Shown here: positions 50,877-64,000 of the stretch, piece by piece | Position numbering within the stretch: the stretch's first letter is position 1 | Layout: each line of letters opens with the position of its first letter | Source of the DNA: Buttiauxella gaviniae | Lineage (GTDB): Bacteria; Pseudomonadota; Gammaproteobacteria; Enterobacterales; Enterobacteriaceae | Length of the DNA stretch: 64,000 bases | Assembly (NCBI RefSeq): GCF_040786275.1 | Contig: NZ_JBFMVT010000002.1 | Span: 3,410,001-3,474,000 of the forward strand | Direction: 5' to 3' | Translations under genes and position numbers: made by a program | Notes under the pieces: model-generated | Databases searched by the model: none | What the model was told of the DNA's origin: nothing | The model's input: the letters and a program-made list of their open reading frames with translations, nothing else

Positions 50877-52565
50877 ATGTACGAATTTAACCTGGTGTTA
50901 CTGCTGCTTCAGCAGATGTGTGTCTACCTGGTTATTGCCTGGTTGATGAGTAAAACGCGGCTGTTTATCCCGCTGATGCAGGTCACCGTACGTTTGCCCC
51001 ACAAACTACTTTGCTACGTCACTTTCTCCATTTTCTGCATTATGGGCACCTATTTTGGGCTGCACATTGATGATTCCATCGCCAACACGCGCGCAATCGG
51101 CGCAGTGATGGGCGGACTACTCGGTGGGCCAATGGTCGGCGGCCTGGTAGGGTTAACCGGAGGCTTACATCGCTATTCGATGGGCGGTATGACCGCGTTG
51201 AGCTGCATGTTTTCCACCATCGTGGAAGGGTTACTGGGCGGCCTGTTACACCGCTTGCTGATTCGCCGTGGCCGCAGTGATTTGCTGTTTAATCCTCTCA
51301 CCGCAGGCGGTATTACGCTGGTGGCTGAATTCTTCCAGATGGGCATTATTTTGCTAATTGCCCGCCCGTTTGCCGACGCTCTGCATCTGGTGAAAAGTAT
51401 TGCCGCGCCGATGGTCGTCACCAACACCGTAGGGGCCGCGTTGTTCATGCGTATTCTGCTGGATAAACGCGCGATGCTTGAAAAATACACCTCGGCTTTC
51501 TCAGCCACCGCCTTGAAAGTGGCTGCCTCTACAGAAGGGATTTTGCGCCAGGGTTTTAACCAGGAAAACAGCATGAAAGTGGCGCAGGTGCTGCATCAGG
51601 AGCTGGACATCGGCGCGGTCGCGATCACCGATAATGAGAAATTACTGGCTTTTACCGGCATTGGCGCAGACCACCATTTGCCAGGCCGCCCGATCTCCTC
51701 TGACTATACCTGGCAGGCCATTGAGCGCGGGGAAGTGGTATATGCCGATGGCAATGAAATGCCGTACCGCTGTTCGCTGCACCCAAATTGCAAATTGGGG
51801 TCGACGCTGGTTATCCCGCTATACGGCGAAAATAGCCGCGTGATTGGCACTATCAAACTCTATGAAGCGAAAAACCGACTTTTCAGTTCGATTAACCGCA
51901 CGCTAGGTGAAGGCATCGCACAACTGTTATCCGCGCAGATTCTGGCGGGTCAGTACGAACGGCAAAAGCAGATGCTGACGCAATCCGAGATCAAACTGCT
52001 GCACGCCCAGGTGAATCCCCATTTTCTGTTTAATGCCCTCAATACGCTGGTGGCGGTGATCCGCCGGGATAACGAGCAAGCCTGCCAACTGGTGCAGTAT
52101 CTTTCGACCTTTTTCCGCAAAAACCTGAAACGCCCGACGGAAATCGTCACGCTGGCTGATGAAATTGAGCATGTGAACGCCTATTTGCAAATTGAACAGG
52201 CACGTTTTCAGTCGCGCTTGTGCGTGCAACTGAATGTCCCGCAGGAGTTAGCGCAGGTAAGGCTCCCGGCGTTTACCCTACAGCCGATTGTCGAAAATGC
52301 GATTAAACACGGGACTTCGCAGCTACTCGGCGTGGGTGAAATAAGCGTGAGCGCGTGCCAACAAGGTGAGCATCTGCACTTGTCCATCGAAGACAACGCC
52401 GGTTTGTATCAGGAAAATATCAGCGCCAACGGATTGGGCATGAGTCTGGTCGATAAACGACTGCGCGCCCGTTACGGTGACGATTGCGGCATTAAAGTGG
52501 ATGTCGAGCCAGACCGATTTACCCGCATTACCCTACGTTTACCTCTGGAGGAAACCCCATGTTAA
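50877..52565 (+). CDS. btsS: High-affinity pyruvate sensor histidine kinase BtsS
   Basis: LytS-type sensor kinase that responds to external pyruvate and phosphorylates BtsR. The start at 50877 ([13 protein letters not shown]) gives 562 aa (561 in E. coli). Multiple transmembrane helices of the 5TM-LYT type fill residues 1-210. A GAF domain follows (about 220-360). The kinase core has His382 in [11 protein letters not shown] and an HATPase domain with a VENAIKHG N-box. It overlaps btsR by 7 bp. In E. coli this pair also precedes yehS. Confidence 0.96.
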
Positions 52566-53287
52566 AAGTGCTGATTGTCGATGACGAGCCGCTGGCGCGT
52601 GAAAATCTGCGAATAATGCTACAAAACGAGCCTGATATTTCAATCGTGGGGGAGTGTGGGAATGCGGTGGAAGCGATTGGCGCGGTGCATCGTTTGCACC
52701 CGGACGTGGTGTTTTTAGATATCCAGATGCCGCGCATCAGCGGGCTAGAAATGGCCAGCATGCTCGATCCTGAACAGCGGCCTTACATTGTGTTTCTCAC
52801 CGCGTTTGATGAATACGCGGTGCAGGCCTTTGAAGAACACGCTTTTGACTACTTGCTCAAACCGATTGATAGCAAACGATTAGAGAAAACCCTGCACCGC
52901 TTGCGCCATGAACGTGCCGATCAGGACATCACGCTGCTCGCACCCAATCAGGAAGATCTCAAATTCATTCCCTGCACCGGCCAAAGCCGTATTTACCTGC
53001 TGCAAATGGACGATGTGATGTTCGCCAGCAGCCGCATGAGCGGCGTGTATGTCACCAACGTGCAGGGTGCCGAAGGTTTTACCGAGCTAACCTTACGCAC
53101 GCTGGAAAGCCGCACATCCTTAGTGCGCTGCCATCGGCAATACCTGGTGAATATGGCGCATCTCAAAGAAATCCGCTTTGAAGAGGGTGGGCAGGCCGAG
53201 TTGATGCTGCGCGACGGGCAATCTGTACCGGTAAGCCGCCGTTATCTGAAGAGCCTGAAAGAGGCTTTGGGGCTTAAAGCGGTGTAG
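52559..53287 (+). CDS. btsR: Response regulator BtsR
   Basis: LytTR-type regulator that in E. coli activates btsT, a CstA-family pyruvate transporter. It has 242 aa (239 in E. coli). The receiver domain has Asp54 as phospho-acceptor ([10 protein letters not shown]). The C-terminal LytTR DNA-binding domain starts near residue 135. Overlaps btsS. A possible target promoter lies in this window at 62229-62277. Confidence 0.96.
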
Positions 53288-53310
53288 TTTTTGTACCAAT
53301 AGTGACATAT

Positions 53311-53334
53311 ACTTGTACTGTAAATTGTACAAGT
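53311..53334 (+). promoter_or_regulatory. Palindromic operator of yefM-yoeB
   Basis: Perfect 8-bp arms ACTTGTAC 53311-53318 and GTACAAGT 53327-53334, 8-base spacer, 10 bp before the yefM ATG. YefM is known to bind TGTACA-type palindromes, so this is the likely autorepression site. Confidence 0.75.
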
Positions 53335-53343
53335 GGAGTGGTT

Positions 53344-53607
53344 ATGCAAGTTATTACTTTTTCTGAAGCACGCAATCGTCTCAAATCCGTTCTTGATGAA
53401 GTTGCGGATAATGCAGATATCACCGTTATCACACGCCGTGATGCAGAAGATTCGGTGGTGATGTCCCTGGATTACTACAATTCTCTAATGGAAACGGTTC
53501 ATCTGCTTAGTTCCCCAGCTAATGCAATGCGTCTGATGGAATCAATGGCGCAAGCCCAGGCAGGCAAAATCTCAAGGAGAGAGATTATTGATGAAGACGA
53601 CGAATAG
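53344..53607 (+). CDS. yefM: YefM-family antitoxin
   Basis: Phd/YefM antitoxin that blocks YoeB and represses its own operon. The start at 53344 gives 87 aa; the frame is open from 53302 but that would run through the operator. The N-terminal Phd fold has VITFSEARNRL and VVMSLDYYNSL. The acidic C-terminus (EIIDEDDE) is the flexible toxin-binding tail. It overlaps yoeB by 17 bp. It lies between btsR and yehS, whereas yefM-yoeB is near hisL in E. coli. Confidence 0.92.
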   Translation: MQVITFSEARNRLKSVLDEVADNADITVITRRDAEDSVVMSLDYYNSLMETVHLLSSPANAMRLMESMAQAQAGKISRREIIDEDDE

Positions 53608-60837: not shown

Positions 60838-62119
60838 TGTACAGTCCGGGGACATGGTAGACAGGTGTTCGGACACATGGTGAACACTTTTTAACATCCT
60901 TTACCCATCGTGATCGACCTGTTTTTCAGGTCGATCACGCCCACTCTTGTGCTGTACCACCACACTTCATATTGTCCCTCTCCTGTCTCCTTCAACCCGA
61001 CATGCTCGCCGATAAACGCCTTGCCCGCCTTCAGTTGCATCCCCTTAATACTGAGTTTTCCGCTTATATCCACCTTCCTGACCATCATCCCGGCATCATA
61101 CTCTGCCGCCGCCGGACGGGCCTGATACTGCCGCGATGAGGGCTGGTAGCGTGATGCCGGCACCTGCATTCCCAGGGCCTCATGAGGCCGTTCCAGGTTG
61201 TATCTGTCCCGCCAGCTGTCGAACGTCTGCTGCAGCTGCTCACTGCTGAGGAACCAGCGCCCCTGCAGCAGTTCAGCCTTCAGGCTGCGGTGAAACCGCT
61301 CCAGCTTGCCCTGGGTCTGCGGGTGATAAGGCCGTGAGTGCCCGACGCAGATACCCTGGCGCATCAGCCACAGCTCCAGCGCTGTCCACGTTCCGGTGGT
61401 ATCTCCCCAGGGCGCGCCGTTGTCCATGGTCATCCGCTCCGGCAAACCGTAGCGTTCGAAGACCTGCCGCAACTGAGCCTGTACGGTCCCGCGGCGCTCG
61501 TCGGCACAATGGGCCAGGCACAGGGAGAAACGGGAGTGGTCATCGAGCAGGGTGAGTGGATGGCAGCGACCGGCGGCAAACGGAAAATGCCCTTTAAAAT
61601 CCATCTGCCAGAGCTGGTTAGGGGCAGCATGTTCGAAACGCCCGGTGGCAGGAATGCCGGACGGGAGGCCGGGCAACAGCCCATGGCGTGCCATCAGGTT
61701 ATGGACGGTGCTGAAGGCAGGCAGGGTGTGGCCCTGGCGCTCGAGTGCGACCTTTATCTTGCGGGCGCCCCATGCCGGATAGCGTGCGTGAGCCTGGCGT
61801 AACAGGTCGACAACAGCCTCAGGCGTGCAGTGGGGAGAATGACGGGGTGTTCGCGGGCGCTCAGTGAGGCCCGCGTGGCCTTCAGCCAGCCAGCGGCGCA
61901 GCCACTTGTAACCTGTGGCAGGCGCAATGTTAAAGCGACGACAGAGCGCCCGGATGTTGGCCCCGTCCTGCGAGGCAAAGTGAACGAACTCGGTACGTAA
62001 TGACATGGTATCTCTCGCATCCCACGGCATAAGCGGCTCCTGAAAGAAGTACTCATGCCTTAGTTGTAAGTGTCTACCATGTCCCCGAACAAGTGTTCAC
62101 GATGTCCCCGGACTGTACA
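60838..62119 (-). mobile_element. Complete IS481-family insertion sequence, 1282 bp
   Basis: Both ends start TGTACAGTCCGGGGACAT (18 identical bases, left at 60838, right reading back from 62119), then continue as imperfect inverted repeats. Each end holds two related GGACATNGTRRACA-type boxes, likely transposase sites. The 5-bp direct repeat CCAGG flanks it (60833-60837 and 62120-62124). The element contains one intact transposase gene. I cannot name the exact IS. Confidence 0.93.
60891..62030 (-). CDS. IS481-family transposase
   Basis: DDE transposase of the element, 379 aa and intact. The N-terminal helix-turn-helix (about residues 25-50, ALCRRFNIAPATGYKWLRR) is followed by the rve integrase core. 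The catalytic triad is likely Asp144 (WQMDFKG), Asp203 (TMDNGAPWG) and Glu244 (GKLERFHRSLK). A later in-frame ATG at 62006 (MSLRTEF) could also be the start. Confidence 0.94.
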   Translation of the reverse strand: MPWDARDTMSLRTEFVHFASQDGANIRALCRRFNIAPATGYKWLRRWLAEGHAGLTERPRTPRHSPHCTPEAVVDLLRQAHARYPAWGARKIKVALERQGHTLPAFSTVHNLMARHGLLPGLPSGIPATGRFEHAAPNQLWQMDFKGHFPFAAGRCHPLTLLDDHSRFSLCLAHCADERRGTVQAQLRQVFERYGLPERMTMDNGAPWGDTTGTWTALELWLMRQGICVGHSRPYHPQTQGKLERFHRSLKAELLQGRWFLSSEQLQQTFDSWRDRYNLERPHEALGMQVPASRYQPSSRQYQARPAAAEYDAGMMVRKVDISGKLSIKGMQLKAGKAFIGEHVGLKETGEGQYEVWWYSTRVGVIDLKNRSITMGKGC

Positions 62120-62228
62120 CCAGGGGAGGGAGCTATTAGCGCCGCCATCTGCAACGTCTTTAACTCCTCCCCCTGGTAAGGGGGAGGCTGGGTGGGGGTC
62201 ATTTAGTTCCCGGCACTGACAGAGAAAA

Positions 62229-62277
62229 ACCACTCATCCCACCAATCCAACCGCTTAACGCCCAATATGACCACTCA
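62229..62277 (+). promoter_or_regulatory. Three BtsR-type direct repeats upstream of the CstA-like gene
   Basis: ACCACTCA at 62229-62236, ACCGCTTA at 62250-62257 and ACCACTCA at 62270-62277. All three fit ACC(G/A)CT(C/T)A exactly, the motif described for BtsR at E. coli btsT, with 13- and 12-base spacers (about two helical turns). They lie 78-126 bp before the start codon and to the right of the IS, which leaves them intact. Confidence 0.82.
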
Positions 62278-62354
62278 CTAAAACTCCCACCTATTGCTTC
62301 TCAAACCCATGCCAGCATAGCGCTGAATTTTTTCTCTTTGGCCTGGAGTGGGTT

Positions 62355-64000
62355 ATGCAACACGCACTAACTTTTGTTATCGCGACTCTGTGTATTCTTG
62401 CTATTTGCTATCGCCTTTATGGGGTGTTCTTCGTCCGTAAAGTGCTGAATGCTGATGACTCAGAAATCACACCGTCACATATTCTTGAGGACGGCAAAGA
62501 CTACGTCCCGACTAAAAAATGGGTGAACTTCGGCAGTCACTTTGCTGCAATCGCCGCCGCGGGCCCGCTGGTAGGGCCGGTTCTGGCTGCACAATACGGT
62601 TATCTGCCAAGTTTCTTATGGCTACTGATTGGTTGTGTTGTCGGCGGGGCGGTGCACGACACCGTGGTGCTGTTTGCCTCCATGAAACATCGCGGTAAGT
62701 CGCTCTCAGAAGTGGCAAAAGCGGAACTTGGCCCCGTTGCTGGCTGGTGTACCGGCCTTGCGATGCTGTTTATCATCACTATCACCATGGCAGGTTTGTC
62801 GATGGTGGTGGTTCACGCCCTGGAGCGTAACCCGTGGGGCACCTTCGCGGTGTTTATGACTATTCCGGTCGCGATTTGCGTTGGCCTGTGGGAGCGTTAT
62901 ACCGGAAGCATGCGCGGAGCGACCTGGGTCGGCATTATCGTGATTTTTGCCTGCGTCATCATCGGCCCGTACATTCAGGAATCTTCTTTCGGTGAATGGC
63001 TGAGCCTGCGCGCCTCAACGGTTAGCCTGGTGCTGCCATTCTATGCGTTCTTCGCAACCGCCCTGCCAGTCTGGATGCTGCTGACTCCGCGCGGTTACCT
63101 TTCCAGCTTTATGAAAATTGGCGTGTTCGGCGCGCTGGTGATTGGCGTGGTGTTCATCAACCCGGAAATCCAGTTCCCGGCGGTGACGCAGTTTATCCAC
63201 GGTAATGGCCCGGTTCTCGCAGGCCCGGTTTGGCCGTTTATCTCCATCACGATTGCCTGTGGCGCGATTTCTGGCTTCCATGCGTTTATCGGTTCCGGCA
63301 CCACGCCGAAGCAAATCGACAAATGGAACGATATTCTGCCGGTCGCGTTTGGCGCTATGCTGGCGGAATGTGTGGTGGGTGTGATGGCGCTGATTGCCGC
63401 CACCGCGCTGCATCCTGCTGACTATTTTGCCATTAACTCCTCGCCGGAAGTGTTTGCCGGCCTGGGGATGAACGTGGTGAATCTGCCGCAGCTCAGCGAG
63501 TCTATCGGCCTCGATCTTTATGGTCGTACCGGTGGAGCGGTGACGCTGGCGGTGGGTATGGCGGACATCTTCACCCGCATTCCATGGTTCAGCCATTTAG
63601 CCTCTTATTTCTTCCAGTTCGTGGTGATGTTTGAAGCGGTGTTTATTCTGACTGCGGTCGATTCCGGCACCCGTGTTGCGCGCTACCTGCTGCAAGATTT
63701 CCTGGGTGACATTTGGGCTCCGCTCAAACGTACTAACTGGATGCCGGGCGCGATTGGTTGCAGCATCGTGGCTTGCCTGCTGTGGGGCTATCTGCTGAAC
63801 TCCGGCGACATCAATTCCGTGTGGGCGTTGTTTGGTGTTTCTAACCAGTTAATGGCATCCATCGGCCTGATGATTGGGGCAACCATCATCCTGCGTATGT
63901 CGGAAAAACGCTGGTATGTGCTGACTTGCCTGGTGCCGCTGTCCTATCTTTATATGACCGTGAACTATGCAGCTTACTGGATGGTGAAAAACGTCTACTT
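62355..64000 (+). CDS. CstA-family carbon starvation/pyruvate transporter (partial, runs off the right edge)
   Basis: Multi-span inner-membrane transporter of the CstA family, whose E. coli members (CstA, BtsT) take up peptides or pyruvate. The window holds 548 codons from the ATG at 62355. Family motifs are HFAAIAAAGPLVGPVLAAQ and ISGFHAFIGSGTTPKQI. It starts one helix later than CstA and BtsT and is clearly diverged from both, so I do not call it btsT. CTGGAG lies 8 bases upstream of the ATG. The BtsR-type sites in front suggest pyruvate-responsive control. Confidence 0.9.
   Translation, partial: MQHALTFVIATLCILAICYRLYGVFFVRKVLNADDSEITPSHILEDGKDYVPTKKWVNFGSHFAAIAAAGPLVGPVLAAQYGYLPSFLWLLIGCVVGGAVHDTVVLFASMKHRGKSLSEVAKAELGPVAGWCTGLAMLFIITITMAGLSMVVVHALERNPWGTFAVFMTIPVAICVGLWERYTGSMRGATWVGIIVIFACVIIGPYIQESSFGEWLSLRASTVSLVLPFYAFFATALPVWMLLTPRGYLSSFMKIGVFGALVIGVVFINPEIQFPAVTQFIHGNGPVLAGPVWPFISITIACGAISGFHAFIGSGTTPKQIDKWNDILPVAFGAMLAECVVGVMALIAATALHPADYFAINSSPEVFAGLGMNVVNLPQLSESIGLDLYGRTGGAVTLAVGMADIFTRIPWFSHLASYFFQFVVMFEAVFILTAVDSGTRVARYLLQDFLGDIWAPLKRTNWMPGAIGCSIVACLLWGYLLNSGDINSVWALFGVSNQLMASIGLMIGATIILRMSEKRWYVLTCLVPLSYLYMTVNYAAYWMVKNVY

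Follow-up and report, generated by a model that had tools for sequence, protein, structure and literature searches.

A short CstA-family transporter gene preceded by three BtsR-type sites in Buttiauxella gaviniae: a predicted BtsR target in place of BtsT

The BtsSR–BtsT system serves as the reference case for pyruvate sensing in enterobacteria. At btsT of E. coli, BtsR is said to use two motif copies with a 13-base spacer, the motif reportedly going back to Kraxenberger 2012. In the accessible text of a study on the sensor, the pyruvate-contact residues of E. coli BtsS are given as Arg72, Arg99, Cys110, and Ser113 (PMC10653868). CstA and BtsT, which are 61.1% identical to each other, are both described as pyruvate transporters in the available part of another report (PMC7730263). 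According to the portion of Behr et al. (2017) at hand, E. coli reporters were tested in nine gamma-proteobacteria, BtsR motifs precede putative yjiY targets in most species, including Yersinia (YE1981) and Xenorhabdus, and the targets adjoin the sensor genes in Aeromonas and Vibrio (PMC5552118). The targets are treated there as yjiY, and this portion contains neither two mutually exclusive clades nor a third site. A LytTR-type regulator of Pseudomonas aeruginosa, AlgR, is said in an excerpt to use three binding sites at algD (PMC4064291), so that three sites are not unheard of for a LytTR regulator. AlgR–algD and the BtsR array described below are alike in the number of sites, but differ in regulator, sites, and target.

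The window examined here is a stretch of 64,000 nucleotides from the genome of Buttiauxella gaviniae (Table 1). It resembles the E. coli BtsSR–btsT (YehUT–YjiY) system in that the sensor and the regulator are the same, the 8-bp repeat and its 20/21-bp steps are the same, the target belongs to the CstA family, and CstA is also encoded in the genome. The differences concern the target and the sites. The Buttiauxella protein (hereafter the short type) has 599 aa as compared to 716 aa in BtsT, neither yjiX nor yjiA is located behind its gene, and three exact sites stand against two exact sites and one with a mismatch at E. coli btsT. CstA (TC 2.A.114) of E. coli and of this genome shares PF02554 with the short transporter, but has 701 aa, a ybdD-type gene next to it, and no BtsR array. 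The gene starting at 62355 is, very probably, a BtsR target in this Buttiauxella, encoding a BtsSR-activated putative pyruvate transporter that stands in for BtsT.

Table 1. Positions of the btsSR genes, the insertion element, the BtsR-type sites, and the transporter gene in the window
Feature	Position	Strand	Remarks
btsS, LytS-type pyruvate-sensor kinase	50877..52565	+	84% identical to E. coli BtsS; mechanical ORF starts at TTG 50865
btsR, LytTR response regulator	52559..53287	+	BtsR equivalog, 400.6 bits (cut-off 246); 79% identical to E. coli BtsR
IS481-family insertion, 1,282 bp	60838..62119	- (transposase)	ends 109 bp before site 1; sites untouched
BtsR-type site 1 (ACCACTCA)	62229..62236	+	exact ACC(G/A)CT(C/T)A; starts 126 bp 5' of ATG
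BtsR-type site 2 (ACCGCTTA)	62250..62257	+	exact ACC(G/A)CT(C/T)A; starts 105 bp 5' of ATG
BtsR-type site 3 (ACCACTCA)	62270..62277	+	exact ACC(G/A)CT(C/T)A; starts 85 bp 5' of ATG
CstA-family (PF02554) transporter, 599 aa; predicted BtsR target and predicted pyruvate transporter	62355..64000, end beyond window; whole gene L005:856-2655	+	profile match, genome read

The transporter, its upstream sites, and btsSR in the window

The short transporter passes PF02554 with 601.1 bits (gathering score 27) and fails the CstA equivalog NF011590 with 470.8 bits (cut-off 1188), for which the other gene of this genome scores 1518.9. Two PF02554 genes are present in the genome, namely cstA and the 599-aa gene. 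The clear divergence from CstA and BtsT that had been claimed for the transporter is borne out: it shares 43% identity with the genome's own CstA and 40% with E. coli BtsT, the latter two being 62% identical. It is not, however, peculiar to this genome, but belongs to a widespread clade, often located beside btsSR. Its counterparts in nine named Buttiauxella loci are 97–99% identical to it. A search with E. coli BtsT (E ≤ 1e-280) revealed no BtsT in the genome and did not retrieve the 599-aa gene either. Judged by its identity to BtsT, its place in the short clade (SH-aLRT 100), and the absence of a yjiX-type neighbour, this gene is not a BtsT ortholog. A yjiX-type gene is located within 1.5 kb of none of 19 short genes vs. 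29 of 30 BtsT genes; among 80 named short loci, one (Ewingella) has such a gene, ~2.5 kb downstream. No solved structures matched the transporter at E 0.001.

The three exact sites were found as originally predicted, on the forward strand and in steps of 21 and 20 bp. Site 2 is the best conserved of them in a promoter alignment of 25 rows, and the upstream homology between the window and nine other Buttiauxella loci restarts at 62224–62229, that is, at site 1. Single ACC(G/A)CT(C/T)A 8-mers number 13 in the window, as compared to a mean of 6.3 in shuffled sequences. Across the 4.76 Mb genome, ACCRCTYA-N(11-15)-ACCRCTYA occurs solely as the two overlapping pairs of the triplet at 62229–62277, and the reversed pattern gave zero matches. 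With up to two mismatches, 31 places with N12 and 30 with N13 were detected in the whole genome, the reversed-pattern controls being higher (50 and 91). The triplet aside, all of these relaxed places have two mismatches, save one with a single mismatch at C2:4023030. The chance expectation is ~6e-6 exact triplets per genome (first-order Markov DNA of the window's composition), and no N12/N13 pairs were found in four simulated genomes. Many similar motifs elsewhere in the genome had been named as an argument against the original prediction; exact phased pairs are present at the triplet only, and the prediction was not refuted on this count. Chance as the origin of the motifs was rejected on the grounds of these unique pairs, the low expectation, and the retention of the array in relatives. 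A simple consensus scan revealed no sigma-70 promoter before the 62355 gene. By eye only, a conserved CAGNATAGC block at 62313–62321 may represent a candidate -10 region; a similar block is present upstream of E. coli btsT.

The btsSR genes had been placed ~9 kb upstream on the same strand, which agrees with the distance of 9,067 bp between the end of btsR and the transporter gene. Arg72, Arg99, Cys110, Ser113, and His382 of E. coli BtsS are all present in the BtsS of the window, and the LytTR domain of its BtsR is 81% identical to that of E. coli. Both features expected of a BtsR-regulon member, phased upstream repeats and a genome encoding BtsS and BtsR with intact sensing residues, were thus found for the 62355 gene. 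The btsSR genes lie in a metG-mrp-btsSR-yehS neighbourhood, the E. coli counterparts likewise being located within ~20 kb. The frame directly behind btsR (53302–53607) resembles, by eye, a YefM-type antitoxin.

Between btsR and the transporter gene, the window contains a cluster of aldehyde-oxidase genes and one copy of IS481. An aldehyde oxidase gene is also found upstream of the transporter in eight of the nine other Buttiauxella loci; the ninth (L016, a MAG) has btsS-btsR-yehS there instead. The IS481 element possesses imperfect terminal inverted repeats and, by eye, an apparent CCAGG target duplication. Seven full-length copies with 100% (rounded) identity are present in the genome, which suggests recent activity, and no match to the element was detected in the nine other Buttiauxella loci. 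As a cause of regulation IS481 was rejected, because it ends before site 1 and because IS481-free Buttiauxella loci share the array, though not always with three exact sites.

The array and the two transporter types in relatives

The 300 bp upstream of each gene were scanned for three ACCRCTYA copies in 20/21-bp steps with ≤4 mismatches in 24 positions. This triplet was present before 18 of the 19 short genes; for btsT, where the 30 most E. coli-like of 86 genes were taken, the figure is 29 of 30. Among the named short loci, it was found in 38 of 42 Enterobacterales and in 19 of 38 loci outside NCBI Enterobacterales. Shuffled controls with ≤4 mismatches yielded 1–3 matches in 950 for the set of 19 short genes and none for btsT (0/1500), the named Enterobacterales (0/2100), and the other loci (0/1900), while alternative steps (15, 17, 18, 19, and 22–25) gave 0 or 1 match per set. 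None of 21 cstA upstream regions contained a triplet (minimum 8 mismatches), with cstA starts set 96 nt before the Pfam match, not taken from a gene call, and ≤3 mismatches also required in the first site. The best triplet of the short gene L100 has 5 mismatches. Two exact sites of the btsT gene L137 (>4 mismatches) are located where the 300-bp scan ends, so that a farther third one would escape.

E. coli btsT possesses a third site copy with one mismatch (GCCGCTCA), 20 bp farther upstream, and this copy is contained in the SPR fragment published for YehT binding, as given in the available part of that paper (PMC4847170). The E. coli-like arrangement of the original prediction stands with regard to the repeat and the steps, but not to the count of two copies: three sites are usual, also before btsT. 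That the triplet is a peculiarity of the 599-aa gene was rejected, since btsT promoters share it. The distance from site 1 to the ATG is 121–127 bp in short promoters vs. 156–250 bp in btsT promoters.

An exact pair is located before 10 of the 19 short and 57 of the 86 btsT genes, and is missing from the other nine and 29, respectively. For the 198 family genomes, 75 of which gave a match, the listing comprises 115 exact pairs; 99 of these begin no more than 400 bp before a short or btsT gene and share its strand. Among the 16 remaining listed pairs, two are simple repeats (G333) and two occur in G316, a genome of 49% completeness with no btsT detected. The reversed-pattern control gave ~60 matches in the same 198 genomes (tally by eye); the pair alone, without position, is therefore weak evidence, and location carries more. 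A phased exact triplet at G343:C6:85094-85142, away from the btsT of that genome, possibly marks a second BtsR target.

The same 198 family genomes were searched for the short transporter (E ≤ 1e-200), E. coli BtsT (E ≤ 1e-280), and BtsR (NCBIfam NF008677; E ≤ 1e-60), at thresholds that would miss broken or partial transporter copies. The short transporter was identified in 19 genomes, BtsT in 86, and both in none. BtsR was present in 103 genomes, 84 with BtsT and 19 with the short type, and none of these had neither. BtsT without BtsR occurred in two genomes (G394 and G433), and five of the 86 BtsT genomes contain a second, CstA-like gene (63–64% identity) that narrowly passed the threshold too. 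The probability of no overlap by chance among the 103 BtsR genomes is ~4e-21 on the assumption of independent genomes, a value that overstates the case, since the genomes are related; for the same reason, the BtsSR tree is a better guide than chance values. Genus g134 has both states in different species, the short type in G329 and BtsT in G457.

The original prediction had offered an extra or a replacement member of the regulon. Of these, the replacement of BtsT as the predicted BtsR target is strongly supported by the genome comparison: BtsT is absent here, the two types never co-occur in the 198 genomes, and 103 of 103 BtsR genomes are covered by one or the other. An extra regulon member was rejected for the first two of these reasons, at the thresholds used. 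Judging from the genomes surveyed, the replacement of BtsT by the short type is systematic.

The position of btsR in the 19 short-type family genomes varies: ≤670 bp away on the same strand in eight, 7–9 kb away on the same strand in four (three genomes of the window's genus and G412), and elsewhere in seven. For the named loci, which overlap in part with the family genomes, fetched stretches of ≤6 kb were inspected. They contain both btsS and btsR on the upstream side of the short gene in 17 of the 42 Enterobacterales loci and in 29 of the 38 from outside NCBI Enterobacterales. The latter include Azospirillum, Chromobacterium, Aeromonas, and Tolumonas. The short type, together with the sites, is also present in the Yersinia loci retrieved here. 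No btsS was detected within 1.7 kb upstream of btsR in 12 stretches (L192-L196, L200, L202, L215-L217, L219, and L220); the sensor gene is probably located apart from the regulator gene at these loci.

In an order-wide sample of 295 genomes, 76 of which have an exact pair, comparison of two tables by eye revealed at least 14 genomes with an exact pair just upstream of another class of PF02554 genes, with open frames of 485–552 aa. These include G233 (L243), G253 (L244), and 12 others of the order. The two genes of this third class that were examined encode proteins of 480 and 478 aa, whose aligned parts share 27–37% identity with the other types.

Transporter history and alternative readings

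In the transporter tree (57 rows, quick method), a fully supported branch separates all 36 short rows from all 19 BtsT rows and two CstA rows. The CstA rows were left uncounted, their position relative to BtsT not being settled by this tree. On this topology, the short type is a clade separate from BtsT. The BtsSR tree was rooted at the midpoint and comprised 45 of 58 rows; 12 rows without BtsS and one without BtsR in the fetched stretch were dropped. The transporter label requires four changes in this tree, all of them forced by well-supported branches. By our reading, with the short-only Aeromonas/Chromobacterium/Azospirillum side as the outgroup, four separate changes from the short type to BtsT would explain it.

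We give about even weight to a broader reading, in which the BtsR operator would generally be a three-site phased array, a fixed socket for at least three CstA subfamilies (716, 599, and ~480 aa). In that case, BtsSR would have been paired across Proteobacteria with the short transporter first; the BtsT–YjiX unit of E. coli would have come later and ousted it on at least four occasions, the other transporter being lost every time. A different history, compatible with the role proposed for the 62355 gene, is that btsSR and the transporter moved between lineages as a cassette, with no swap under a resident sensor. The arrangement btsS-btsR-transporter is indeed common in alpha-, beta-, and gamma-proteobacteria, and G318 has an early-branching BtsSR, yet a BtsT nested among others. 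The Buttiauxella sensor, however, looks resident because its BtsSR branch among other Enterobacteriaceae and because of the metG-mrp-btsSR-yehS neighbourhood, whose genes lie within ~20 kb in E. coli as well. Transfer as a cassette is a possible but rather doubtful history.

As for the function of the 62355 gene, the preferred reading is that BtsS would sense extracellular pyruvate and activate BtsR, which would bind the three sites, phased by about two helical turns along the same face of the DNA. Bound BtsR would turn on the 599-aa CstA-family transporter, and this protein would import pyruvate, the job of BtsT in E. coli. The case would represent a non-orthologous replacement, in which sensor, regulator, and operator were kept and the transporter is different. 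BtsR binding, activation by pyruvate, pyruvate as the substrate, and proton coupling are what we infer from sequence; the substrate is suggested by the regulation and the one-for-one replacement of BtsT.

It is unlikely, but conceivable, that BtsR regulates the gene while the short transporter carries another substrate (another keto acid, a peptide, or an amino acid), the output of the regulon having changed. The identity of only 40–43% to BtsT and CstA, the separate clade, and the contrast in YjiX-type genes within 1.5 kb (0/19 vs. 29/30 for BtsT) are consistent with such a change. Its partner BtsS, however, keeps all four reported pyruvate-contact residues, the short type substitutes BtsT one for one, and CstA and BtsT are both described as pyruvate transporters in the available text (PMC7730263). 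We consider it highly improbable that the sites are relics or chance and that the gene is outside BtsR control. Although the window contains twice the expected number of single 8-mers, sites are degenerate in several relatives, and pairs of the reversed-pattern control are not uncommon among family genomes, the triplet holds the sole exact pairs of the genome, its register and distance to the start codon (121–127 bp) are kept in 18 of 19 family genomes, and the Buttiauxella upstream homology begins at site 1.

BtsR motifs before yjiY genes in several genera are already known; the alternation of transporters and the triplet are apparently new, no prior report of either being found in the literature searched, mostly without subscription journals. 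The second clade goes unmentioned in the accessible parts of publications dealing with BtsS, BtsT, CstA, and further pyruvate transporters (PMC10653868, PMC9504724, PMC7730263, PMC5431176, PMC12632267). If sensor and switch are kept in many bacteria but serve another transporter, findings on E. coli BtsT, such as affinity or any role of YjiX, would not be transferable by annotation. The one-or-other pattern provides a natural experiment on why bacteria manage with a single regulated pyruvate transporter, and the conserved third site makes it easy to test how LytTR regulators use arrays instead of pairs.

Also, inspection by eye revealed similar G+C-rich repeat blocks of the CCCACCCAGCCTCCCCC type before both of the genome's CstA-family genes, at window positions 62125–62205 and at L006:2060-2150. 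A gene for a YjiA-like GTPase (L006:4782-5804; 279.8 bits, under the model cut-off of 361) is located behind cstA and the ybdD-type gene. The E. coli order is yjiA after btsT-yjiX and hcxA after cstA-ybdD; the YjiA-like gene behind cstA may be linked to the lack of btsT here.
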